Positions 1-12,592 of a DNA stretch of 64,000 nucleotides are shown in pieces. Source of the DNA: Gammaproteobacteria bacterium (lineage in GTDB: Bacteria > Pseudomonadota > Gammaproteobacteria > Pseudomonadales > Azotimanducaceae); contig QJYB01000061.1 in NCBI GenBank assembly GCA_003247835.1, positions 62,001 to 126,000 on the forward strand, in the 5' to 3' direction. Positions within the stretch are counted from its first letter, which is position 1; every line of letters begins with the position of its first letter. Both the position numbers and the translations under genes were made by a program. The notes beneath the pieces are model-generated. The model worked only from the letters and a program-made list of their open reading frames with translations. It was not told the origin of the DNA and made no database searches.

Positions 1-2
1 CC

Positions 3-437
3 CACTGGGATGAGGACATGCGCTTCCAGCACGATCTGACGAGCTTCGCGCTGGTGGGCCTGCACCGCGTGACGTCCTGCGAGCAGTGCCACGATACGCT
101 GGTATTCTCACCGCTCGGGCACGACTGCATGACATGTCACGCGGATGAGGACGTCCATGGCGGCGCAATGGGTGAACGCTGTGACAGCTGCCACAACCCG
201 GCGGGGTGGGAGCACTGGTCGTTCGACCACGCCGTGGCGACCGGTTTTGCGCTGGAGGGCGCTCATGCCTCCCTCGCCTGCGCCGACTGCCACCCTGCCA
301 ACCGCCCGGTCGGCAATCAGTCGCGCGCCTGCGTGGCGTGCCATCGCGGCGATGACGTGCACAATGGCCGTTTCGGCCAGAACTGCGACCGCTGCCACAC
401 CGGCACGAGCTTCGAGGAGTTGAAGGATGACCTCTGA
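3..437 (+). CDS. Multiheme c-type cytochrome, 5'-truncated at window edge
   Basis: Frame open from base 3 (HWDEDMRFQHD...); CxxCH motifs CEQCH, CMTCH, CDSCH, CADCH, CVACH, CDRCH; stop TGA 435-437 overlaps next start. Confidence 0.9.
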   Translation, partial: HWDEDMRFQHDLTSFALVGLHRVTSCEQCHDTLVFSPLGHDCMTCHADEDVHGGAMGERCDSCHNPAGWEHWSFDHAVATGFALEGAHASLACADCHPANRPVGNQSRACVACHRGDDVHNGRFGQNCDRCHTGTSFEELKDDL

Positions 438-1908
438 TCGCGCTCGCATGTCAGGCATTCGGACGCGCTGGTCCGGCGCGGCGCTGATCCTGGTGCTGGC
501 GATCACGGGAAAAACGGCGCTGGCCATGGAGCGCGCAGACCATTACGGGTTCGGCTTCGACCTGGACGGTGCGCACAGCGAGGTGGCCTGCGAGTCCTGC
601 CACGTGCGCGGCATCTTCAAGGGCACGCCGCGGGAGTGCGGATACTGCCATGACGGCACCGGCATCTACGCCAGCTCGTTCCGTTCGCTCAACCACCCGC
701 TGACGACGGAGAACTGCGAGGCCTGCCACACCACCACCAACTGGGTCGCCGTCAGCAACGTCGACCACGGCGAGGTGATCGGCAGCTGCTCGTCCTGCCA
801 CAATGGGCGCATCGCCGAAGGCATGCCCCCCGGTCATCTGCAGACGACGGATGAGTGCGACAGCTGCCATACGGACGTCGGCTGGCAGCTGGTGATGTTC
901 AATCACGAGGGCATCGTCGACGGCTGCGTGAGCTGCCACAACGGTGTACGGGCAACGGGTAAGCACCCACAGCACGTCGCGAGCTCCGATCTGTGCGAGA
1001 GCTGCCACAGCACCGCCGCCTGGATACCCGTGCTCTACTTCGATCACACCGGTGTCACCGGCGGGTGCGCGAGCTGCCACGATGGTGTCACCGCAAGCGG
1101 CAAGAATCCCCAGCACATTCAGAGTACGAACGTGTGCGAGGACTGCCACACCACCGAGTACTGGTCGCCCGTGGTCACCGTCGACCACGCCCAGATCCTT
1201 GGCTCCTGCGCATCCTGCCATGACGGGGTGACCGCAACCGGCAAGCATCCGCAGCACATCGCGAGCTCCAATGTCTGCGACGACTGCCATACCACGGATG
1301 CCTGGCTGCCCGCCGTCTTCGACCACGGCAGCGTCAGCCCCGGCACCTGCGCGACCTGCCACGACGGAGTGACCGCAACCGGTAAACATCCCCAGCACCT
1401 GGTGACCAACCTGTCCTGCGACGCCTGCCACTCAACGATCGCCTGGATTCCGGCGATCTTCGACCACACCAATGTCACCCCGGGGACCTGCGCGAGCTGC
1501 CACGACGGGGTGACGGCAACCGGACAGGATCCCGGCCACTTCATGACCAGCGCCTCCTGCGACGACTGTCACAGCACCACGTTCTGGACACCGGATCAGT
1601 TCGTGCACACCTCACCTGCCTATCCGGGAGACCACGCCGTCAGCCTGCAGTGCACGGACTGCCACGGCGGCAACAGCGAGATCGTCACCTGGACCGCAGC
1701 GGCCTATCAGCCCGACTGCGCAGGATGCCACGCCAACGACTTCACCCCGGGCCCGCACCGGAAGCACAACAATCCGGACACCAACTACACCGTCGACGAG
1801 CTTCGTGACTGCACCGGTGCCTGCCACATCTACACGGACAGCTCCCTGTCCACCGTCGAAACGTTCCGGCCCGGGCCGCAGCACAGCGTCCGCAGCATTC
1901 AGTTCTGA
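427..1908 (+). CDS. Multiheme c-type cytochrome (17 CxxCH + 1 CxxxCH), exported
   Basis: N-terminal hydrophobic signal (ALILVLAITGKTALA), 17 CxxCH counted plus CTGACH; 47-aa repeated di-heme modules. Confidence 0.95.
   Translation: MTSDRARMSGIRTRWSGAALILVLAITGKTALAMERADHYGFGFDLDGAHSEVACESCHVRGIFKGTPRECGYCHDGTGIYASSFRSLNHPLTTENCEACHTTTNWVAVSNVDHGEVIGSCSSCHNGRIAEGMPPGHLQTTDECDSCHTDVGWQLVMFNHEGIVDGCVSCHNGVRATGKHPQHVASSDLCESCHSTAAWIPVLYFDHTGVTGGCASCHDGVTASGKNPQHIQSTNVCEDCHTTEYWSPVVTVDHAQILGSCASCHDGVTATGKHPQHIASSNVCDDCHTTDAWLPAVFDHGSVSPGTCATCHDGVTATGKHPQHLVTNLSCDACHSTIAWIPAIFDHTNVTPGTCASCHDGVTATGQDPGHFMTSASCDDCHSTTFWTPDQFVHTSPAYPGDHAVSLQCTDCHGGNSEIVTWTAAAYQPDCAGCHANDFTPGPHRKHNNPDTNYTVDELRDCTGACHIYTDSSLSTVETFRPGPQHSVRSIQF
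808..1610 (+). repeat. Tandem 141-bp (47-aa) di-heme module repeats within the cytochrome gene
   Basis: Module starts at 808, 949, 1090, 1231, 1372 and 1513, exactly 141 bp apart; consensus TATGKHPQHxxSxxxCxDCHTTxxWxPxxxFDHxxVxPGTCASCHDGV; last copy partial. Confidence 0.92.
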
Positions 1909-1910
1909 CC

Positions 1911-4397
1911 ATGATGCGACGAATCCTCATCCTGCTGCTCCTGGTCGTGCCGCTCACCGCCAACGCTGCCGCGCTGCTGCGAGACGTCTTCTATCAGGAT
2001 CAGGAGGTCTGGGTGGACCTCGAGATCCGCCTCGGCATTCCTGTGCGGATCGATTCGTTCAACGCGGAGAAGAACGAGCTCGTCCTCGGCCTGACGGCGC
2101 TGACGAGCGAGTCCGGGGAGTGGAATGCTCAGGAGCTCCGCTTCGATGAGGACGACCGACTGCTTCAGACCGTGAGCCTGGAAGGCAGCGACCGCAAGGG
2201 CTACGTGCTGACGCTGCGCTTTGCCGCGCCGGTGAACGCGCAGCTGCTGCCCCAGTTCGACAGTAATCAGGTGCTGATGAAGCTCGCCCCTGAGCGGACC
2301 TGGGCGAGTCTGACCCGCTTCGCCAAGACCACGTCCGCGGACCCCTACACCATCAATCTGGAATCCCGACAGCGGAGCGTGCCGACCCTGGCCGACCTGC
2401 CGCGTGGCTTCGTCGAATCGAACGTCATCTACATCACCGACTTCGAGAAGGACGGCACGGTCTGGCACCGGCTGCGGCTCGGTTTCTTCGACAGCGAGCG
2501 GGAAGCAAACCGGGTCGCCGGCACCCTGCGCCGCTACTTTCCGGATGCCTGGATCGACCGGGCGAGCACAGAAGAGGTGAGCTTTGCGGAGGCGTTCCGG
2601 CTCAACCCGTCGCTCTACGTCGACAACGAGGTTGCGGCGGAAGAGACAGTCCCGGCCGCAGCCACGGAAGAGGACGTGCAGCTGACCATCGCGCTCACCA
2701 CACCCACCACCATCGACGTCGTCCCGGAACCAGCGCCGGAGCCCGTTGCCACGGACTGGACCCGGCGCGCGCCCGTCGAGCCCGAGCCGCCGGGAGAGGT
2801 GGAAGCGCTGCTGCTGGAAGCCAACCATGCCTTCGAGGAAGAGGACTGGCCCACGGCCATCAACCGCTATGGCGCGGTGATCGCCGCCGGTCAGGAGCCC
2901 TGGCGGCAGGAGGCACTGGAGATGCTGGGCGTTGCCCGCGAGCTCAACGATCAGAAGGCCCACGCCAAGCGCTACTACGAGATGTATCTGGACGACTACG
3001 CCGGTACCGAAGGGGCCGATCGTGTCGCCCAGCGCCTGGCGGCGCTGACTGCGTTCGACACCGCAAAACCGGCTGCCGCGCCGCGCAATCCGGCGGTGGC
3101 CTCCCGGCCCGCCTGGGATCTGGGCGTGCAGTTTTCCCAGTTCTATCAGCGCCAGAGCCTGAAGGTGGACAACCGCTCCGCGGTGCCGGTGAACGGGCTG
3201 TTCAACGACCTGAATCTCATGGCACGAAGGGACGGCGAGTCCGTCGACCAGGAGATGCGCGTCACCATGAGCTACCTCCTCGACTTCAGCAACAACGACT
3301 GGCTGAGCGGACGTGAGTATCAGGTGAGCGCCGCCTACTGGGACGGTTTCGTCGACCGGTTCAACGCCGGCGTCCGCATCGGCCGCCAGTCGAACTGGGA
3401 GACCGGGGCCCTCGGCCGCTTCGACGGCGCCGATCTCACCTACCGATTGAGTGACCGGATCGGTTTCGGTCTCACCGGCGGCTACCTGATCGACGCCTCC
3501 TACGACGCGCCGGACAGCAACCGCCCGTTCTTCGGACTGCGCGGCGAGTATCTGTCCGACTCCGGCAGGATCTCGCTGAAGCCGTTCTTCGTGCAGCAGT
3601 ACGCGGACGGCCAGCTGGACCGGCAGGCCATCGGCCTGCAGAGCCAGTACTACTCCGAGCGGCTCATGCTGTTCTCACTCGTCGACTACGACGTGCATTT
3701 CGCCGCGCTGAACAACCTGACGCTGACGGGTAACTTCACCTTCGGCCGTTCGCAGCTGAACGCGTCCTACGAGCACCGCAAGAACCCCTATCTCACCACC
3801 CGCAACGCGCTGATGGGACAGCCCTACGACGATCTCACGGAGTTCGAGGCGATCCTGCTCGACATGAACCTCGAGCAGATCGCCGATGACCGGACCGCCA
3901 CCAGCAACTCGATCCGCGTCGGCTGGAACCAGCGCCTGGGACAATCCTGGTCACTCAGCGCGGACGTGGTCGCGACGGATTTCTCGAGCACCGAAGCCTC
4001 CGTCGACGTTCTGGGTCTGGATTCGCAGAAGACCCTGTACACGTCCGTGCAGATCCGCTCCTCGGACATCTTCGGTCGCGGCAGCTACTCGGGTCTCATG
4101 CTGCGCGTAGCGGATTCCGAAACAAGCGACACCACGTCCCTGTACTGGGACAACCGGTTCGCCTTCGGCGGCAGCTGGTTCCTCTATCCACGGTTCCGCG
4201 TCGATCATCGTGCCTTCGTCCGTACCGACGACGAGCAGTGGACGCTGCGCCCGTCCGTACGTCTCGATTACCGCCTGAACCGCAGCATCCGCTTCGAGCT
4301 GGAGAGCGGCTACGAGTGGTCGACCCGTGACTTTGCCGACCGGTCGGTGGACATCACGGGCCTGTTCCTGCGCGCCGGCTATCGCGCCTTCTTCTAG
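1911..4397 (+). CDS. Outer-membrane beta-barrel protein with N-terminal AMIN-like, SPOR-like and TPR-like regions
   Basis: Signal peptide; YTINLESRQ...VIYITDFEKDGTVWHRLRLGFFDSEREANRVAGTLRRYFPDAWI resembles SPOR; helical repeats at about aa 295-375; C-terminal ~430 aa with alternating aromatic strands ending YRAFF. Confidence 0.82.
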   Translation: MMRRILILLLLVVPLTANAAALLRDVFYQDQEVWVDLEIRLGIPVRIDSFNAEKNELVLGLTALTSESGEWNAQELRFDEDDRLLQTVSLEGSDRKGYVLTLRFAAPVNAQLLPQFDSNQVLMKLAPERTWASLTRFAKTTSADPYTINLESRQRSVPTLADLPRGFVESNVIYITDFEKDGTVWHRLRLGFFDSEREANRVAGTLRRYFPDAWIDRASTEEVSFAEAFRLNPSLYVDNEVAAEETVPAAATEEDVQLTIALTTPTTIDVVPEPAPEPVATDWTRRAPVEPEPPGEVEALLLEANHAFEEEDWPTAINRYGAVIAAGQEPWRQEALEMLGVARELNDQKAHAKRYYEMYLDDYAGTEGADRVAQRLAALTAFDTAKPAAAPRNPAVASRPAWDLGVQFSQFYQRQSLKVDNRSAVPVNGLFNDLNLMARRDGESVDQEMRVTMSYLLDFSNNDWLSGREYQVSAAYWDGFVDRFNAGVRIGRQSNWETGALGRFDGADLTYRLSDRIGFGLTGGYLIDASYDAPDSNRPFFGLRGEYLSDSGRISLKPFFVQQYADGQLDRQAIGLQSQYYSERLMLFSLVDYDVHFAALNNLTLTGNFTFGRSQLNASYEHRKNPYLTTRNALMGQPYDDLTEFEAILLDMNLEQIADDRTATSNSIRVGWNQRLGQSWSLSADVVATDFSSTEASVDVLGLDSQKTLYTSVQIRSSDIFGRGSYSGLMLRVADSETSDTTSLYWDNRFAFGGSWFLYPRFRVDHRAFVRTDDEQWTLRPSVRLDYRLNRSIRFELESGYEWSTRDFADRSVDITGLFLRAGYRAFF

Positions 4398-6286
4398 GGT
4401 TTGTACCAGATGGGCGAGCTCCAGGCCCGATCCTGCAGCGTCGCATGCAGCTCCGGGTTGGGTGGCGTGCCCGCCCGGATCGCATCCCAGGTGGACCACC
4501 GGCACTTCGGGTTCTCCAGCACGCGGACGTAGTAGAACGCGCGCTGACCGGGATCGAACGCCGGATCGGTCCACACCACGGCCAGCTGCGAGGCGCCTAC
4601 GTCCTCAGACACCGCACAGGTGCTGAGGTCCACCGTCGCGCCGTTGTCCGGGCAACGGTGGTCCATGGGCGACGGGCTCATGCCGCCGGAACAGGCCACG
4701 TCGACGACCGTCTCCCGGGGCTCACCGTTCTCGATCCAGCCCTTGACGATCTGCAGCCGCTGCAGCGGCACGCTGTCCGCATCCCGGGCCGCCCAGATGA
4801 TGAAACGGGGAGCCCGGTCACCATCGGCGAGCAGGTCACCTCCCATGGGCACGCCACCGGCGTAGGCCTGCTCCAGGATGTCGTTGCGTGACAGGATTGC
4901 CGGATCGTAGTCGTAGCCGGCGAAGAACCGCACCCGGATGTGCGGTCCGCTGGTGGAGAAGGTTTCCTTGCGCCGGAACGCCTCGAAGATGGCGTCCCGC
5001 GTGTTCGACTCCGCCCACACGCCGGCGAGTCCGGACGCGCCCCAGAACCGGGCAGTCGACTCCGCGTACTGCGGGTCGTCCGGCGGTGAATCCGGCAGCG
5101 GCACCGAACCCCGCAGATAGGGCTCGATGTCGGTGATACCCGTCTTGCTCCAGTAGTTGTCCTCCTCGAACGATCCGGCGGCGTTGTGGGTGTCCGAAGA
5201 GCCGATGACGCCGAATCTGTATGGATTGAAGCCGCTCTCCGCTTCCATCTTCAGACCGTTCAGATAGGCCTCACGGACATAGCTGCCGTGGGGTCGGGAC
5301 TTCAGGTTCGAAGCGATCCGGTAGGGCATGATCTCGAAGTCCGCCCACTCGTCGTTGGGCGAAAGCAGCGGGTGCGTGTCCGAGGTGCCTTTCACCTGCG
5401 TGTTCTCCACCAGCGGCTCGTTGCGCATGCGCTGCTCGGCATAGGCCGCATCCATGGGTTCGCCGGCGAAGTTGGTGGTCTGGAACATCCAGCCATCCGA
5501 GCCGTTGGAGTTGTGCGGAATGGCGATGGCGTCCATGCCGTTGGCCCGGTTGTTGTCCATCCAGTCCCAGAGGTCTTCGGGATTCAACGAATCGAGGCGG
5601 ACGAATGGCTGCCGGGGGACATCGCTGCCGCGGAAGATGACGTTGCGGTGCAGGTTCTCGAACGCGGGGCCCGAGGACGTGTACTCGTAGCCGATGAATG
5701 CGGTGAACCTGCCCGGGTCGTTGTTCCGCTCCGCCGCCTCGATGATCTCCTGCCAGGCGGACCGGGCCACTTCCCGGTTGTCCAGGTCGTCTCCCCCATC
5801 CGGATTCGCCGCCACTTTCTGCAGGTGGGCGATGGCTGCGGCGAACGCCTTGCGTGAGCCATCCACGGTGGTCGAGCCGCGAACCGCATCGGCCAGCTCG
5901 TGCTGAATCCGGCCTGCCGCGATCTCACGCATCATGCCGAGATAGAAGCCGTGATCCGATACGGCGAGAAAGTCGAGCGGCTTCTTCATCTGCATCATGA
6001 AGCCCGAGGCGTGCTCGATGGCTCCGCCTTTGGCGAACGTGTACGCATCGTCCGGCGTGCGTCGCGTGCCCATCAGAAACGCATCGAACGACAGGATCGT
6101 GTGCACGTGCACGTCCCCGAAGTACGCGTCGCGAAGCTGATTGACCGGTACGGCCTCCGTGTCGTCTGCTTCGGCCACGGGCATCTCCGGTTCGGCTGCC
6201 GCCGAGGTCTGCGGCGTCTCACCGGTTTCCTGTCCGCAACCCCACAGTAGAAACGCCAGCGCCATCGCCAGTGTGCGAATGTGCAT
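4394..6286 (-). CDS. DUF3604 family lipoprotein (PHP-like metal-dependent hydrolase fold)
   Basis: Lipobox LLWGC; FGDVHVHTILSFDA; VSDHGFYLG; IGSSDTHNAAG; start trimmed from track ORF to MHIRTLAMALAFLLWGCG. Confidence 0.88.
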   Translation of the reverse strand: MHIRTLAMALAFLLWGCGQETGETPQTSAAAEPEMPVAEADDTEAVPVNQLRDAYFGDVHVHTILSFDAFLMGTRRTPDDAYTFAKGGAIEHASGFMMQMKKPLDFLAVSDHGFYLGMMREIAAGRIQHELADAVRGSTTVDGSRKAFAAAIAHLQKVAANPDGGDDLDNREVARSAWQEIIEAAERNNDPGRFTAFIGYEYTSSGPAFENLHRNVIFRGSDVPRQPFVRLDSLNPEDLWDWMDNNRANGMDAIAIPHNSNGSDGWMFQTTNFAGEPMDAAYAEQRMRNEPLVENTQVKGTSDTHPLLSPNDEWADFEIMPYRIASNLKSRPHGSYVREAYLNGLKMEAESGFNPYRFGVIGSSDTHNAAGSFEEDNYWSKTGITDIEPYLRGSVPLPDSPPDDPQYAESTARFWGASGLAGVWAESNTRDAIFEAFRRKETFSTSGPHIRVRFFAGYDYDPAILSRNDILEQAYAGGVPMGGDLLADGDRAPRFIIWAARDADSVPLQRLQIVKGWIENGEPRETVVDVACSGGMSPSPMDHRCPDNGATVDLSTCAVSEDVGASQLAVVWTDPAFDPGQRAFYYVRVLENPKCRWSTWDAIRAGTPPNPELHATLQDRAWSSPIWYKP

Positions 6287-6368
6287 ATCCCACCCCCCAT
6301 TCAAGGATGCAAGGGATTGTCGCCGAACCGTACAATGCGGGGCAAACCGTGAGGGGGAGGGGATCATC

Positions 6369-8396
6369 ATGCGGTGGATTCGACTGAGCGCTGCATTCGT
6401 TCTGGCCTTGCTCGCTGGCTGCGCAGAGCCGCCACCGACGGCGAATGACACGGCGGCGAACGCCACCGCCGAGCCCGAAGCGGCCGCTGAGGCGCCGGTG
6501 GGCCTGCCGAGCCAGACGCTGTTCGACCCGGCGTACGACTCGGTCGCGATCTCGCCGATCCGCGACTCGGAGCGGGTCGCCCTGTTCGGCGACCTGCACA
6601 TTCACACGCGCTACAGCTTCGATGCTTACGCCTTCGGCACCCTGGCGAGCCCGTCGGACGCCTACCGCTACGCCAAGGGCGAACCGATCCGCCATCCGGC
6701 GGGATTCACGCTGAAGCTGCCCGCACCGCTCGATTTTCTCGGGGTAACCGACCACGCCATGTTCCTCGGTGCCGTTGCCCAGGCGGCGGATACCAGTACC
6801 GCATTCTCGGAGCTGCCCATGTCGCAGCCGTTCCACGACCTCAACCGTCCGGACAACCTGACCCCGGCCAGCATCGCCGACCGGGCTCAGCGGTTCTCCA
6901 CCTTCATTCCCAGCGCGGTGCAGGGCGTGACGGATGGCTCCATTCCCCGCGGTACGTTCGACGGCATCGCCCGATCCGCCTGGGCCGACATCATCGCCGC
7001 CGCGGAAGCGAACAACGATCCGGGCAAGTTCACCACCTTCGTCGCCTACGAGTACACAAGCTCCACCGACGAACGGGGCAACCTGCACCGCAACGTCATC
7101 TTCCGCAGCGGTGACCGGGTGCCTGGCGCGCCGTTCTCGCGTTTCCACTCGCAGAATCCGGAAGGTCTATGGGCCTGGATGGACAAGCTGCGAGCCCAGG
7201 GGATCGAGAGCATCGCCATTCCGCACAACTCCAACGGCTCCAATGGCGCCATGTTCATGCTCACGGACTGGGCCGGTAATCCCATCGATGCCGCCTATGC
7301 CGACACCCGTTTGCGCAATGAGCCGCTGGTGGAGGTAACTCAGGTCAAGGGCACTTCCGAGACCCACCCGCTGCTCTCGCCCAACGACGAGTGGGCGGAC
7401 TTCGAGATCATGCCGTACCGGATCGCCACCACATTGCACAGCGAGGAGAACGGCAGCTACGTGCGCCAGGCCTATCTGCGTGGGCTCAAGATGGAAGCGG
7501 AGATCGGCGCCAATCCCTACAAATTCGGCCTGATCGGGTCTTCCGACACCCACGTTGCCGCCGGTTCCTTCGAGGAAAGCAACTTCTTCTCCAAGATCGG
7601 CCTGCTCGACGCCACGCCGGCGCTGCGCGGCTCCGTACCCCTGAGCGAAGAGGCGGTTCGCATGGCCGGCGCGAGCGGTCTGCAGCAGAGCCTGAAGGAG
7701 GTGGACGGCAAGTTCTACCGGGACGGCGCCCAGCAGACCTGGGGCGCTTCCGGCCTTGCAGCGGTCTGGGCCGAGGAGAACACCCGGGATGCCATCTTCG
7801 ATGCCTTCCGCAGAAAGGAAACCTTCGCCACCAGCGGGCCGCGCCTGAGGGTGCGTCTGTTCGCGGGCTACGACTATCCGGAGAGCCTGACCGACCGCCA
7901 GGACTGGGTGCAGCAGGCCTACGCCGGCGGCGTCACCATGGGTGGTGATCTCTACGGCCGGGGCCGCGATGCGCCGGTGTTCGCCGTCTGGGCCGCCCGG
8001 GATGCCATGAGCGCTCCACTGCAGCGGCTGCAGATCATCAAGGGTGCGCTGGTGGACGGCGAGATGCGGGAAACGGTCTTCGACGTCGCCTGCTCGGACG
8101 GCCTGACTGTGGATCCCGCGACCAATCGGTGCCCGGACAACGGCGCAACGGTGGATCTCAACGACTGCTCGTTCAGCACCGGCCTGGGTGCCGGGGAGCT
8201 CGCCGCCACCTGGCACGATCCGAGCTTCAATCCCGGCGAGCGGGCCTTCTACTACGTGCGGGCCCTGGAAAACCCGACCTGCCGGTGGTCGACCTGGGAT
8301 GCGGTCAGGAACGGCACCCCGCCGCGGCCGGACCTGAAGACCACCATTCAGGAGCGGGCCTGGTCGTCGCCCATCTGGTACGTGCCGTCTGCATAG
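6369..8396 (+). CDS. DUF3604 family lipoprotein, divergent paralogue of the preceding gene
   Basis: Lipobox LLAGC; FGDLHIHTRYSFDA; long near-identical blocks shared with the 4394-6286 product; start trimmed to MRWIRLSAAFVLALLAGCAE. Confidence 0.88.
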   Translation: MRWIRLSAAFVLALLAGCAEPPPTANDTAANATAEPEAAAEAPVGLPSQTLFDPAYDSVAISPIRDSERVALFGDLHIHTRYSFDAYAFGTLASPSDAYRYAKGEPIRHPAGFTLKLPAPLDFLGVTDHAMFLGAVAQAADTSTAFSELPMSQPFHDLNRPDNLTPASIADRAQRFSTFIPSAVQGVTDGSIPRGTFDGIARSAWADIIAAAEANNDPGKFTTFVAYEYTSSTDERGNLHRNVIFRSGDRVPGAPFSRFHSQNPEGLWAWMDKLRAQGIESIAIPHNSNGSNGAMFMLTDWAGNPIDAAYADTRLRNEPLVEVTQVKGTSETHPLLSPNDEWADFEIMPYRIATTLHSEENGSYVRQAYLRGLKMEAEIGANPYKFGLIGSSDTHVAAGSFEESNFFSKIGLLDATPALRGSVPLSEEAVRMAGASGLQQSLKEVDGKFYRDGAQQTWGASGLAAVWAEENTRDAIFDAFRRKETFATSGPRLRVRLFAGYDYPESLTDRQDWVQQAYAGGVTMGGDLYGRGRDAPVFAVWAARDAMSAPLQRLQIIKGALVDGEMRETVFDVACSDGLTVDPATNRCPDNGATVDLNDCSFSTGLGAGELAATWHDPSFNPGERAFYYVRALENPTCRWSTWDAVRNGTPPRPDLKTTIQERAWSSPIWYVPSA

Positions 8397-8425: not shown

Positions 8426-10303
8426 TCAGCCGCTGCGCGGCCGGAAGGCCAGCAGGACGTTGCCCGGCGGCTGGCCGAAGCGGCCGTAGCCGGAGCCGAT
8501 AAAGACCATGCCGGCGCCGGCGGCGATGCTGTGGGCATCGATGGCGCCACCCTTGCCCGGCACCCCGTTCACCGTCTCGAAATCGCGCAGCGTGTCGAAG
8601 CCGAACCGAACCTCGCCGCTGTCCGCATCGAAGACGTAGAGGCGCCCGTCCACGGCCCCCGCAATGATGGCGTCGTCCACCACCAGCGGCAGCGCTGACA
8701 GGCCGTAACGGGTGTCGCAGGCGGCAAACCGGTCACGACGTCCGTCGCCGCAGTCCGCCGTCAGCGCCTGACGCCAGAGGACCTCTCCCGTCGCGACATC
8801 CAGCGCGTTCATGCCCGGCTCAGGCCGGGATCCGGGCTGCATGGCCGGATCGTTGATGGGCACGAACACCCGCCGCCCGTCCGTGGCCAGCCCCCAGTGC
8901 ACGCCGCCCAGCGGCGTACCTTCACCGAAGCGCCGGTTCCAGAGCAGGGTTCCGCCGTCCGGGTCGAGGGCCCAGACGTCACCGGACTTCTGGCCCGCAA
9001 GCAGCACGTCCCGACCATCGGCGAGGGTGACCAGCACCGCTGAGCCGCCGAAGTCGAAGTCCTTCAGCACACTATCCTCGGGACTCGGACAGTTCGGGCC
9101 GGACTGCGCCCACGCCGACCGGCAGCCGATGATCCAGACGTCGTTGGCCAGCGCCTGAAAGCCCCAGCGCAGGGTACCCGTCGCCAGATCGATGGCCAGC
9201 ACCGCGTCGGACGTCTTCGTCGCCGGCAGCGAGGTATTCTGGCCACTGGTGGCGTAAACCACCCCGCGTTGCCGGTCCACGGTGGGCGTGGACCAGATCG
9301 GCGCGCCGGACGGACCGCGCAGCTTCACGCCCACCCGGTTGGTCCTGCCGGTGTAGGTGGCGTCCGCCATGGTGTGCCAGGTCCAGAGCATCTCGCCGGT
9401 CACAGCGTCCAGCGCCACCACCGCACCGTGCTCCACGCAGCATTCGTACTCCGGGTCCGCTCCGCGGCCGACGCCGGAGCCGGACACGGGAACGATGACC
9501 CGGTCTCCGGCGAGTATCGGCGCGCCACTGATCGAGGTATCCGACGAGTGGCGACCCTCTGCCGTCCAGAGTCGCGTTCCGGTGATTGCGTCCACGGCAT
9601 GCACCTGGCCGCTGCGGTCGGCGAACACCAGCGTCGGGGTCCGGTCCGCTCCAGTAAGGCCATAGGACAGGGAGCTCGACAGTTGAGTGCCCGCGTCGTA
9701 GATCCACTGCACGCAGGGCTGGCGCACATCGAGCGCCAGTACCCGTCCCGTCTGTGGGGCGCTGTGGTAGAGGGTGGTGCCGACGATGACGGGCGCCGAG
9801 CGCATGACGCTGGTATCGGGAAAACCGATGGCCCAGGCCAGCTCCAGATTGGCGAGGTCCTCGCCTTCGAGACCGGCGGCTTCCGCAGTGAGGTGACGAC
9901 TGCCGTGCTCATCCACCCCGACCATCGGCATGGTCACCGGCGCGCGACTCACTTCACGCCGCTCCGGCGGGCAGAGCATCCCCGCATACCAGTCCGGATT
10001 GTCCGCTTCCTTCAGCGCCAGATAGTCGACCAGCTGCGCCAGCTCCCGCCGGGACAGGCTGCCGCCCTGCGCCTGCATCACACCGCGGGTGAGGGCCAGA
10101 AACAGGTTTTCCGCGTTCATCTGCCTGAGCGCATCGAACGACGGTGCCCGGGTCTCATCCGGCCGGTCGTGGCAGGCTGCGCAGTGCGCGGTGTAGAGCG
10201 CCCTGCCAGGATCGTCGTCGCCCGGGGCAGCCACGACCGGCACGGCCGCCGACAGCACAGCGACAAACAGGGCCACTATGACAAGGTACACGCTCTCTCT
10301 CAC
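8426..10303 (-). CDS. PQQ-binding beta-propeller dehydrogenase with N-terminal cytochrome c domain (polyvinyl-alcohol dehydrogenase-like)
   Basis: CAACH in N-terminal cytochrome domain; PQQ-propeller repeats (GxxLWxxxT / VxAxDxxTG); vicinal Cys pair YECCVEHG. Confidence 0.85.
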   Translation of the reverse strand: MRESVYLVIVALFVAVLSAAVPVVAAPGDDDPGRALYTAHCAACHDRPDETRAPSFDALRQMNAENLFLALTRGVMQAQGGSLSRRELAQLVDYLALKEADNPDWYAGMLCPPERREVSRAPVTMPMVGVDEHGSRHLTAEAAGLEGEDLANLELAWAIGFPDTSVMRSAPVIVGTTLYHSAPQTGRVLALDVRQPCVQWIYDAGTQLSSSLSYGLTGADRTPTLVFADRSGQVHAVDAITGTRLWTAEGRHSSDTSISGAPILAGDRVIVPVSGSGVGRGADPEYECCVEHGAVVALDAVTGEMLWTWHTMADATYTGRTNRVGVKLRGPSGAPIWSTPTVDRQRGVVYATSGQNTSLPATKTSDAVLAIDLATGTLRWGFQALANDVWIIGCRSAWAQSGPNCPSPEDSVLKDFDFGGSAVLVTLADGRDVLLAGQKSGDVWALDPDGGTLLWNRRFGEGTPLGGVHWGLATDGRRVFVPINDPAMQPGSRPEPGMNALDVATGEVLWRQALTADCGDGRRDRFAACDTRYGLSALPLVVDDAIIAGAVDGRLYVFDADSGEVRFGFDTLRDFETVNGVPGKGGAIDAHSIAAGAGMVFIGSGYGRFGQPPGNVLLAFRPRSG

Positions 10304-11205
10304 TGGTCCGGCAGCGGAATGAACTCGGCGTCTCCGGGTACCGGCGGGAATGCGCCCTCACGCCAGTCGCGCTTGGCGCGTTCGATGCGATCAGGGCTGG
10401 TGGACACGAAATTCCAGTACAGGTGTCGCGGACCGAGCGAGGTGCCTCCGACCACCATCATCCGGCTCGGCGCCTCGGCCGTGACGGACAACTCTGCACC
10501 GGGCCGGAGCACGGCCATCACGCCGGCATCGAGCGTCCTGTCGTCCATGCGCACCGAGCCCTCGACCACGTAACCGGCCAGCTCCTCCGAGGATCGGGGC
10601 AGGGTCAGATTCGCACCCGCCTCCAGATCCACGGCGAGATACAGCATGGGGGAGAGCACCCTGACGGGCGAGACGGCGTCGAAGGCCTGGCCGATGATCA
10701 CCCCGATCAGTACCCCGGGCAGTTTCACCTGCGGCAGGCGCTCCGCAGGATAGTGCTCGAATGCCGGCTCCACCTCCTGCTGGTCCGCAGGCAGCGCCAT
10801 CCAGGACTGGATCCCGTGCAGCCTGGAGGTCCGCGCCAGATCCTCCCCTGCCCGCTCCGAGTGGACGATGCCACGTCCGGCGGTCATCAGGTTCACGGCT
10901 CCCGGGCGGATCGGCTGCAGACAACCGAGACTGTCCCGGTGAATGATCTCGCCTTCGAACAGGTAGGTGATCGTGGCAAGCCCGATGTGGGGATGCGGGC
11001 GAACCTGGATGCCGCTTCCCGGTGCAAATTCCGCAGGTCCCATATGATCGAAAAAAACGAATGGGCCCACAGACTGTCGCTCCCGCGCCGGCAGCACCCT
11101 GCGGACGCTGAACTCCCCCAGATCCTTCCGCTGCGGCTCGATCAGCATTTCGATGCTGCCCTCGAGCTCACTGCATTCGGGATCCGGTGCTTCCAGATAA
11201 CTCAC
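10300..11205 (-). CDS. Pirin family protein (bicupin)
   Basis: FVFFDHMGPAEFAPGSGIQVRPHPHIGLATITYLFEGEIIHRDSLG...VNLMTAGRGIVHSER is the pirin signature. Confidence 0.93.
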   Translation of the reverse strand: MSYLEAPDPECSELEGSIEMLIEPQRKDLGEFSVRRVLPARERQSVGPFVFFDHMGPAEFAPGSGIQVRPHPHIGLATITYLFEGEIIHRDSLGCLQPIRPGAVNLMTAGRGIVHSERAGEDLARTSRLHGIQSWMALPADQQEVEPAFEHYPAERLPQVKLPGVLIGVIIGQAFDAVSPVRVLSPMLYLAVDLEAGANLTLPRSSEELAGYVVEGSVRMDDRTLDAGVMAVLRPGAELSVTAEAPSRMMVVGGTSLGPRHLYWNFVSTSPDRIERAKRDWREGAFPPVPGDAEFIPLPDQ

Positions 11206-11969
11206 TGACCGTTCTCCTGCACTGTGTCGTCCGCGCCGTCGAGAAACTCTATGGCTTCCGCCAACCGGGCGGGATCGGGATTCTCGTGGCCCATACCATC
11301 TATTTCCATGAGCTTCACGCCGCTCACCCCCGCCTTCCGATAGCGGCCGAATGTACGCCGTGTCGGCCGCAGCGCCTGGTCATGCTCACCCGTTACGAAG
11401 ACGTAGCGGTTGCGGCGGACACGGTCGAGCTGGCGGGGTTCCGCGTCCCAGAACTCTACCCCGCAGATGAAGATTGCACCGCTGAAGAGCTGCGCATGAT
11501 CGGTAGCCACCATACTCGCCATCTTGCCGCCGCCGGACAGTCCCGACACGTACATCCGATCCCGGTCGAGCGCGTATTGCGATCCGATCAGGGTTGGGGA
11601 GATGACGGCGAACAGCGCCCGACGCTGCACGTTTTCCGCGTTGCCGCCATCGTTCGCGCTCACCCAGATGAGGTTGTGCTCCGCGAGCACACGACCCCAG
11701 CGGTCCGGTAACCGGCCGCTGACCGTGGGAGAGATGTAAACCAGCAGACCCGCCGGTGCAGCTGCATCATAGGTCTCGGGCACGAACACGTCCCAGCGGA
11801 TCGGTTCACCCGGCGGATAGATCGCCTCCAGCTGAGCAGCACCCGGCGCACCCAGAATATCCGTGAGTGTGCTTGTCAGGACGAACTCGCCTGTCTGCTC
11901 CGCGGCCAGTGCCACCGGAGTGAGAAGCGCAACGGATACTGCGTACAGCAGTGCAAGCTGACGACTCAT
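11202..11969 (-). CDS. Alpha/beta hydrolase, PHB-depolymerase-like esterase, exported
   Basis: Signal peptide; VSGLSGGGKMASMVATDHAQLFSGA nucleophile elbow; C-terminal GMGHENP histidine. Confidence 0.75.
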   Translation of the reverse strand: MSRQLALLYAVSVALLTPVALAAEQTGEFVLTSTLTDILGAPGAAQLEAIYPPGEPIRWDVFVPETYDAAAPAGLLVYISPTVSGRLPDRWGRVLAEHNLIWVSANDGGNAENVQRRALFAVISPTLIGSQYALDRDRMYVSGLSGGGKMASMVATDHAQLFSGAIFICGVEFWDAEPRQLDRVRRNRYVFVTGEHDQALRPTRRTFGRYRKAGVSGVKLMEIDGMGHENPDPARLAEAIEFLDGADDTVQENGQ

Positions 11970-12034
11970 GGCGCCATTCTACGCCACGCGTCGCCGCACG
12001 ACCGCCCGAAGACAGCCTGTGCAGCCTACAGGAC

Positions 12035-12433
12035 TCAGTTCAGGCTGAATCCGCCACCGTAGGGTGTGGAAACCTTCTTGTACGCATAAAAACGGCACCA
12101 TTCCTGGGGTGCCGGTCCGGATCCACCCATGCGCATCCAGGTGTTGTACCCGGAGGCATTGCTGAACGGATAACGGAACTGCTGGTAAATGGCTTCCTGT
12201 TCGCTGCGCAGGTTGGTCTGTCTGAACAGGCCGTCAAGGCATGCCTGGTAGTGCGGCTCCATGGCGGCCTTGTGCAGGCAGCGGACTGTCGTGCACAGGC
12301 TTGTCGAGGCCGACGCTGACTGCTGCATGTCCGGTGCAGATCTGCCGGCGCAACCGCTCGCGAGGACGATAAGCACGGCGGAAAACAGGGGGAACGGGAA
12401 AGAGCGACTCCTTGCTCTGATGAGATGACTCAA
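12035..12433 (-). CDS. Small hypothetical lipoprotein
   Basis: Signal peptide with lipobox VLASGC; no recognised domain. Confidence 0.6.
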   Translation of the reverse strand: MSHLIRARSRSFPFPLFSAVLIVLASGCAGRSAPDMQQSASASTSLCTTVRCLHKAAMEPHYQACLDGLFRQTNLRSEQEAIYQQFRYPFSNASGYNTWMRMGGSGPAPQEWCRFYAYKKVSTPYGGGFSLN

Positions 12434-12592
12434 TGACTACTCCTGGGGCATGACCGCTACTGCAGGTTCAGCTACGGCTGTGCAAATCGCAGGCCAACTC
12501 CTCCACGCCCAGTCACCGCGAGGCCGCATCGGGTCAAGCCTGTTCCCGTCGCACCGGCCTGAAACACCTTCGCGCCGCAACGCACCCTCGTG

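Follow-up and report, generated by a model that had tools for sequence, protein, structure and literature searches.

The window, which is the whole stretch of 64,000 nucleotides that was analysed (bases 62001-126000 of the 159-kb contig C42, from a 3.47-Mb genome that is 88.8% complete), opens with two multiheme cytochrome genes (MHC1 and MHC2) followed by the gene of a putative outer-membrane barrel protein. The question is whether these genes encode an electron conduit of an undescribed kind, as an earlier note had proposed, or one of a type that is already known. The spacing given in that note was reproduced from the coordinates (Table 1): the end of MHC1 (437) and the start of MHC2 (427) make an 11-bp overlap, and 2 bp separate the end of MHC2 (1908) from the start of the barrel gene (1911). 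MHC1, which had been described as truncated, is indeed partial within the window, but it is intact on the contig, the window edge being the only cut. Recovery of the upstream contig, called for in the note, gave the full MHC1 gene as well as genes for an inner-membrane protein (IMP), an FAD/Fe-S protein and a Sel1/ankyrin protein; the IMP and MHC1 genes overlap by 11 bp, like MHC1 and MHC2. A misassembly of the locus was rejected because its GC content (0.659) is close to that of the window (0.654) and because the identical gene order is found in unrelated assemblies. The source genome also encodes CcmH (cytochrome c maturation).

Table 1. Features of the locus and related genes; positions without a prefix are those of the window.
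Feature	Position	Strand	Size or residues	Remarks
Sel1/ankyrin gene	C42:56810-58651	-	613 aa	signal-like N-terminus; divergent, upstream of IMP
FAD/Fe-S gene	C42:58581-59912	-	443 aa	two Fe-S motifs and pyridine-nucleotide reductase domain; divergent, upstream of IMP
IMP gene	C42:60058-60906		282 aa	directly 5' of MHC1
MHC1, 3' part	1-437	+	513 aa (full gene)	full gene G000:C42:60896-62437; 21 CxxCH, seven triheme units
MHC2	427-1908	+	493 aa	17 CxxCH and 1 CxxxCH; diheme repeat of about 47 aa
PCC3 outer-membrane barrel protein gene	1911-4397	+	828 aa	terminal residue F828
Signal peptide	1911-1991	+	residues 1-27	hydropathy and structure model
AMIN-like beta-sandwich	2013-2291	+	residues 35-127	Foldseek: PilQ B2, AmiC
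SPOR domain	2343-2603	+	residues 145-231	Pfam SPOR, DamX profile, RlpA SPOR fold
TPR-like helices, YbgF/YfiO-like	2790-3062	+	residues 294-384	present throughout the family
Predicted 22-strand outer-membrane barrel	3117-4394	+	residues 403-828	AlphaFold2, Foldseek
Free-standing AMIN-like module gene	L132:12640-13212
Free-standing AMIN-like module gene	L133:2756-3349
Free-standing AMIN-like module gene	L134:3093-3599
Free-standing AMIN-like module gene	L135:3609-4160
Free-standing AMIN-like module gene	L136:3232-3795
Free-standing AMIN-like module gene	L137:3366-3824

The PCC3 type of conduit has been defined as a porin with an extracellular cytochrome, a periplasmic cytochrome and an IMP (He et al. 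2017, PMC5566968); its cytochromes have a median of 21 (periplasmic) and 34 (extracellular) hemes, with few residues per heme (PMC5566968). We found these features at the locus: a porin gene beside a cytochrome gene, the order IMP, periplasmic MHC, putative extracellular MHC and porin, an IMP of 282 residues with its motifs at 77, 118 and 257, and 21 + 18 hemes. S. lithotrophicus ES-1 has PCC3 clusters at Slit_0867-0870 and Slit_1446-1449, the latter in the order IMP (Slit_1446), periplasmic cytochrome (1447), extracellular cytochrome (1448) and porin (1449), and 17 and 21 hemes are given for the other cluster. Compared with the published description of ES-1, the locus is alike in gene order, heme numbers (21 + 17/18), residues per heme (24 and 27) and IMP motifs. 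We filed it as PCC3 because gene order, heme number and motifs match. Judged from its sequence, it is an intact, ordinary member of PCC3, a type described in 2017. The claim of an undescribed system was not supported, since every PCC3 feature that could be tested was present and other genomes have the barrel too, while a porin-cytochrome conduit, also proposed in the note, is the best reading of the modelled barrel together with the cytochromes and the IMP. No PCC3 complex has been demonstrated to move electrons in the open PCC3 literature.

The IMP of PCC3 was described as a protein of about 300 aa with five transmembrane helices, and WX3HX13H occurring twice together with SGXXG is the signature of PCC3/PCC4 IMPs (He et al. 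2017, PMC5566968). A motif search placed WX3HX13H at 77 and 257 and SGXXG at 118 in the present IMP, and both histidine motifs are kept in 80 of 83 homologues. The hydropathy scan alone gave six peaks, one of which (179-197) lies between TM4 and TM5, and no Pfam family matched. By its sequence, the IMP has a four-histidine diheme-b signature. This histidine pattern is shared with NOX/ferric reductases (PMC5566968). IMP, MHC1 and MHC2 had no significant match among solved structures, and there is therefore no sequence-matched template for the complex.

In MHC2 we found 17 CxxCH motifs and one CxxxCH (CTGACH), which agrees with the 18 heme motifs counted earlier; its 47-residue repeat carries two hemes. 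In MHC1, the motifs are spaced by about 17, 18 and 32 residues in a recurring pattern, which indicates that this protein is built of triheme units. Residues per heme amount to 24.4 for MHC1 and 27.4 for MHC2, and matches of the cytochromes to decaheme DmsE-family models were far below the cut-off. Members of the MHC1 family have 18, 21, 24 or 27 hemes (multiples of three in 67 of 69; mean 20.8, sd 2.8), while the number in the MHC2 family ranges from 9 to more than 90 (sd 13.5). The published PCC3 counts of 21, 24 and 27 agree with this triheme quantisation, which we did not find described in the open PCC3 literature. Because the heme number of MHC1 is near-constant and that of MHC2 widely variable, it would be simplest to assume that the length of MHC1 is constrained, as in a wire spanning the periplasm, and that of MHC2 free, as in an external wire. 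The triheme steps of MHC1 would then make a natural ruler relative to the width of the periplasm, and the free length variation of MHC2 would predict its location at the surface. Spanning of the periplasm by long PCC3 cytochromes has been proposed earlier.

Among loci L022-L101, MHC1 has 18 hemes in most Alphaproteobacteria, 21 in most Gammaproteobacteria and 27 in Methylophilaceae, and the CxxCH count of MHC2 is odd in 41 of 43 cases. The MHC2 of Bradyrhizobium sp. BR13661 (L049:12457-20799), which is open at the locus end, has at least 98 CxxCH in 2781 aa. This exceeds 85, the largest number known to He et al. 2017 (PMC5566968).

The earlier note had also assigned SPOR/AMIN/TPR modules and a transmembrane barrel ending in Phe to the third protein, and both assignments were borne out, the modules by fold, profile and homologue matches, and the barrel by its 22 predicted strands, its porin matches in Foldseek and its last residue, F828. 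AlphaFold2, run with 39 homologues, predicted a signal peptide, an AMIN-like sandwich, a SPOR-like fold and five helices, followed by the 22 strands of the barrel within residues 403-827. The mean pLDDT was 82.5, and ten-residue blocks from residue 400 on were mostly at 87-98; the relative placement of the domains is unreliable since the pTM of the full-length model is only 0.57. In Foldseek, the barrel matched porins of the outer membrane and the usher FimD, with a best E of 4.6e-10. With the N-terminal model alone, the two best PDB matches were domain B2 of PilQ (E 2.6e-4) and AmiC (E 6.4e-4), and a lower one was the SPOR domain of RlpA with bound denuded glycan (6i09; TM-score 0.65 normalised to the target). 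One homologue of the barrel protein matches Pfam AMIN, and an NCBIfam AmiC match was also found in a homologue. Pfam SPOR (PF05036) reached 19.8 bits in the window's protein, for a gathering cut-off of 21, and was above the cut-off at the same position in 7 of 10 homologues; a profile search matched the N-terminal region to the SPOR domain of DamX. The TPR match was weak in the window's protein alone and present in at least 28 of the 39 homologues.

By alignment columns, a TPR segment of about 93 residues and a barrel of about 430 are present in 39/39 homologues, which have both the AMIN-like and the SPOR segments, either one, or neither. Thus, the TPR-plus-barrel core is the constant part and AMIN and SPOR are variable additions. 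AMIN domains of PilQ bind peptidoglycan (PMC5285504), which makes it plausible, by analogy, that AMIN and SPOR would anchor the conduit to the wall; since many homologues miss them, wall anchoring is no general requirement. Such anchoring, if it occurs, would account for a long thin wire being kept in register across the periplasm. The N-terminal region resembles in fold the AMIN domains of PilQ and AmiC and the SPOR domains of RlpA and DamX, and it differs from these proteins by the fusion of AMIN and SPOR, via the TPR segment, to a cytochrome-linked barrel. Several loci have a separate 150-200-aa gene, homologous to the AMIN-like N-terminus, between MHC2 and the barrel gene (Table 1).

To follow the distribution of the system, 80 relatives of the IMP, all in named genomes, were retrieved together with flanking sequence, in a survey that starts from IMP matches and in which ORFs were assigned mechanically. 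An initial contig scan with the barrel alone as query had given no matches, and the IMP then served as a better bait. A complete first cytochrome was directly 3' of the IMP in 69 of 81 loci (the window's own counted) and, where the locus sequence reached that far, it was usually followed by the second cytochrome and the barrel. This IMP-MHC-MHC-barrel order was seen in Alpha-, Beta- and Gammaproteobacteria. Methylotenera and Bradyrhizobium, both on the published PCC3 list, were among the surveyed genera, and no locus came from ES-1 or Leptothrix, the sources of the founding PCC3 proteins. An independent barrel-first search gave 30 class-wide loci, two of them without usable upstream sequence. 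A multiheme cytochrome was upstream of the barrel in 28/28 usable loci, the window's own included, with an extra small gene between the two in five. In the class, a strong barrel match was obtained for about 45 of the 369 genomes sampled. The system is patchy among 147 relatives, and the barrel is missing from all four genus mates.

A barrel occurring without any cytochrome neighbour would have told against a conduit, and one such case was found, in genome G106, which has the barrel gene but no cytochrome within 18 kb and no IMP. That case looks like a deletion remnant, however, because the barrel protein is shortened at its N-terminus, where neither the signal peptide nor the greater part of the AMIN module is left, and because its gene starts 39 bp from the Sel1/ankyrin gene, which is normally on the far side of the four genes missing from G106. 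This fits a loss of the system by deletion of the FAD/Fe-S, IMP and two cytochrome genes rather than a separate job for the barrel. In the remnant PCC3 locus L015:7095-13118, with an N-terminally shortened barrel and a Sel1/ankyrin gene 39 bp apart, the Sel1/ankyrin frame is broken near 11192-12481 by a reverse-transcriptase-like ORF, possibly a group II intron.

Two genes near the IMP are conserved, yet stand outside the published four-gene definition of PCC3. The FAD/Fe-S gene, usually divergent, is at most 5 kb from the IMP in 66 of the 77 loci with enough upstream sequence, and the Sel1/ankyrin gene is near the IMP in 51 of these 77. With a search model made from the protein of this locus and one other sequence, the FAD/Fe-S protein was found in 6 of 10 relatives with the barrel or a strong IMP and in 1 of 137 without (Fisher p 1e-7); in this single exception, the end of a contig holds its gene and, next to it, a Sel1/ankyrin gene. 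All of the 69 aligned FAD/Fe-S proteins contain CxxHxxCxxxCP as well as two dinucleotide-binding motifs, and a hydrophobic segment at the N-terminus was scored in 67, with the protein of this locus just below threshold. PDB matches of the reductase half were ferredoxin-NADP reductases and thioredoxin reductases. These data point to a divergent, membrane-anchored ferredoxin/NAD(P)H-reductase-like protein as the commonest extra neighbour of PCC3. It may not be essential, since no such gene was found near some clusters (G013/L016, L088, L098). In the second Fe-S motif (L003:12581-13912), which reads CxxHxxCxxxCP in 69/69, a histidine replaces the usual cysteine.

The open texts searched gave no link of PCC3 to TPR, SPOR, AMIN, ankyrin or ferredoxin reductase. 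Hence the AMIN/SPOR-bearing barrel and the FAD/Fe-S and Sel1/ankyrin partners appear to be unreported, family-wide features of PCC3; they set the locus apart from the open PCC3 texts, which do not mention them, and make the PCC3 mechanism testable. Published PCC3 porins also have up to 42 predicted transmembrane strands; our model has 22, other strands being in the soluble AMIN and SPOR parts.

Other known systems resemble the locus less. PCC4 shares the IMP motif pattern, and its subgroup II has an Fe-S gene near the IMP, but it combines three periplasmic cytochromes, of 4, 5 and 10 hemes (He et al. 2017), compared with two cytochromes here, of 21 and 18. MtrCAB, MtoAB and PioAB are analogous in combining a barrel and a multiheme cytochrome across the outer membrane. 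They differ in that neither the window's barrel nor its 39 homologues matched Pfam MtrB_PioB (PF11854), the only matches in the genome being on another contig, so the contrast with MtrB drawn in the note holds at the family level. A 619-aa outer-membrane-like protein on contig C52 (L144:6256-8115), with a weak MtrB_PioB match and no cytochrome neighbour, was set aside. OmbB-OmaB-OmcB of Geobacter, defined by an octaheme periplasmic and a dodecaheme outer-membrane cytochrome (He et al. 2017, PMC5566968), differs from the 21 + 18 hemes found here.

We consider it likely that the locus encodes a PCC3-type porin-cytochrome conduit between the b hemes of the IMP and an outer wire of 18 hemes. Electrons would pass between the two b hemes of the IMP and the 21-heme wire of MHC1, which would bridge the periplasm and enter the barrel, and then to or from the MHC2 wire outside. 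AMIN and SPOR would tie the barrel to the peptidoglycan, the probable sites being denuded glycan at the septum or the poles. The TPR segment would dock the cytochrome or another partner, and the Sel1/ankyrin protein may be a periplasmic assembly or scaffold factor. It is less certain that the FAD/Fe-S protein links cytoplasmic NAD(P)H to the b hemes. This protein could supply a flavin domain, because the IMP is too short to contain that of NOX/ferric reductases, and cytoplasmic NAD(P)H would then be the inner partner of PCC3. With such a link, flow would more probably be outward (reductive) than inward to quinone, the direction proposed for iron oxidisers. That PCC3 in general is a six-part, wall-anchored, NAD(P)H-linked machine with a triheme ruler and a surface wire, working as a reductase and not as an iron oxidase, is a tentative extension of this proposal, about which we are rather doubtful.

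PCC3 is widespread and often listed as a candidate iron oxidase, and the main alternative is an inward conduit, as modelled by He et al., in which an external donor (Fe(II), Mn(II) or a mineral) would feed the quinone pool through the IMP, the FAD/Fe-S protein being a side branch or making NAD(P)H by reverse flow. We regard this as possible, with some reserve. The model of He et al., the occurrence of PCC3 in iron oxidisers and the histidine spacing of the IMP, which is like that of quinone-active b cytochromes, speak for it (PMC5566968). On the other hand, PCC3 expression in ES-1 is down-regulated on Fe(II), which makes iron oxidation by this PCC3 doubtful and is compatible with NAD(P)H as the inner partner. 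The RuBisCO large subunit was not found in the source genome, which therefore gave no sign of Calvin-cycle autotrophy, a weak argument in view of its completeness. Moreover, the commonest extra neighbour is the ferredoxin/NAD(P)H-reductase-like protein, whose conservation offers a testable electron entry point and argues for considering outward flow.

The TPR-plus-barrel layout, which is like that of other TPR-barrel exporters and of Slam (with weak TPR_Slam matches in 3 of 39 homologues), raises the question whether the barrel is a secretion pore through which MHC2, or a polymer, reaches the surface, rather than the sheath of a conduit. MHC2, if outside, needs a surface route, and only 7 of 144 cytochrome ORFs have a lipobox-like motif. 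This export function is nevertheless unlikely, as the barrel gene is constantly paired with genes for a periplasmic wire of near-constant size and for a b cytochrome of the inner membrane, which export would not need. Even more improbable is a periplasmic electron store or oxidative-stress sink, with periplasmic cytochromes and the barrel as a mere anchor or an unrelated porin: the extracellular MHC2 of the literature is a prediction and many hemes could serve as a capacitor (suggested in PMC10734462), but the barrel adjoins MHC2 in nearly every locus, looks truncated in the only genome without the cytochromes (G106), and MHC2 varies widely in length while MHC1 does not.

On the 3' side of the barrel gene, the ORFs at 4394-6601 (-) and 6141-8396 (+) are long, clearly similar and on opposite strands, and look like a duplicated gene outside the conduit. 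The ORF at 8426-10303 (-), which has a CxxCH near its N-terminus and a repetitive, propeller-like sequence, possibly encodes a quinoprotein dehydrogenase.
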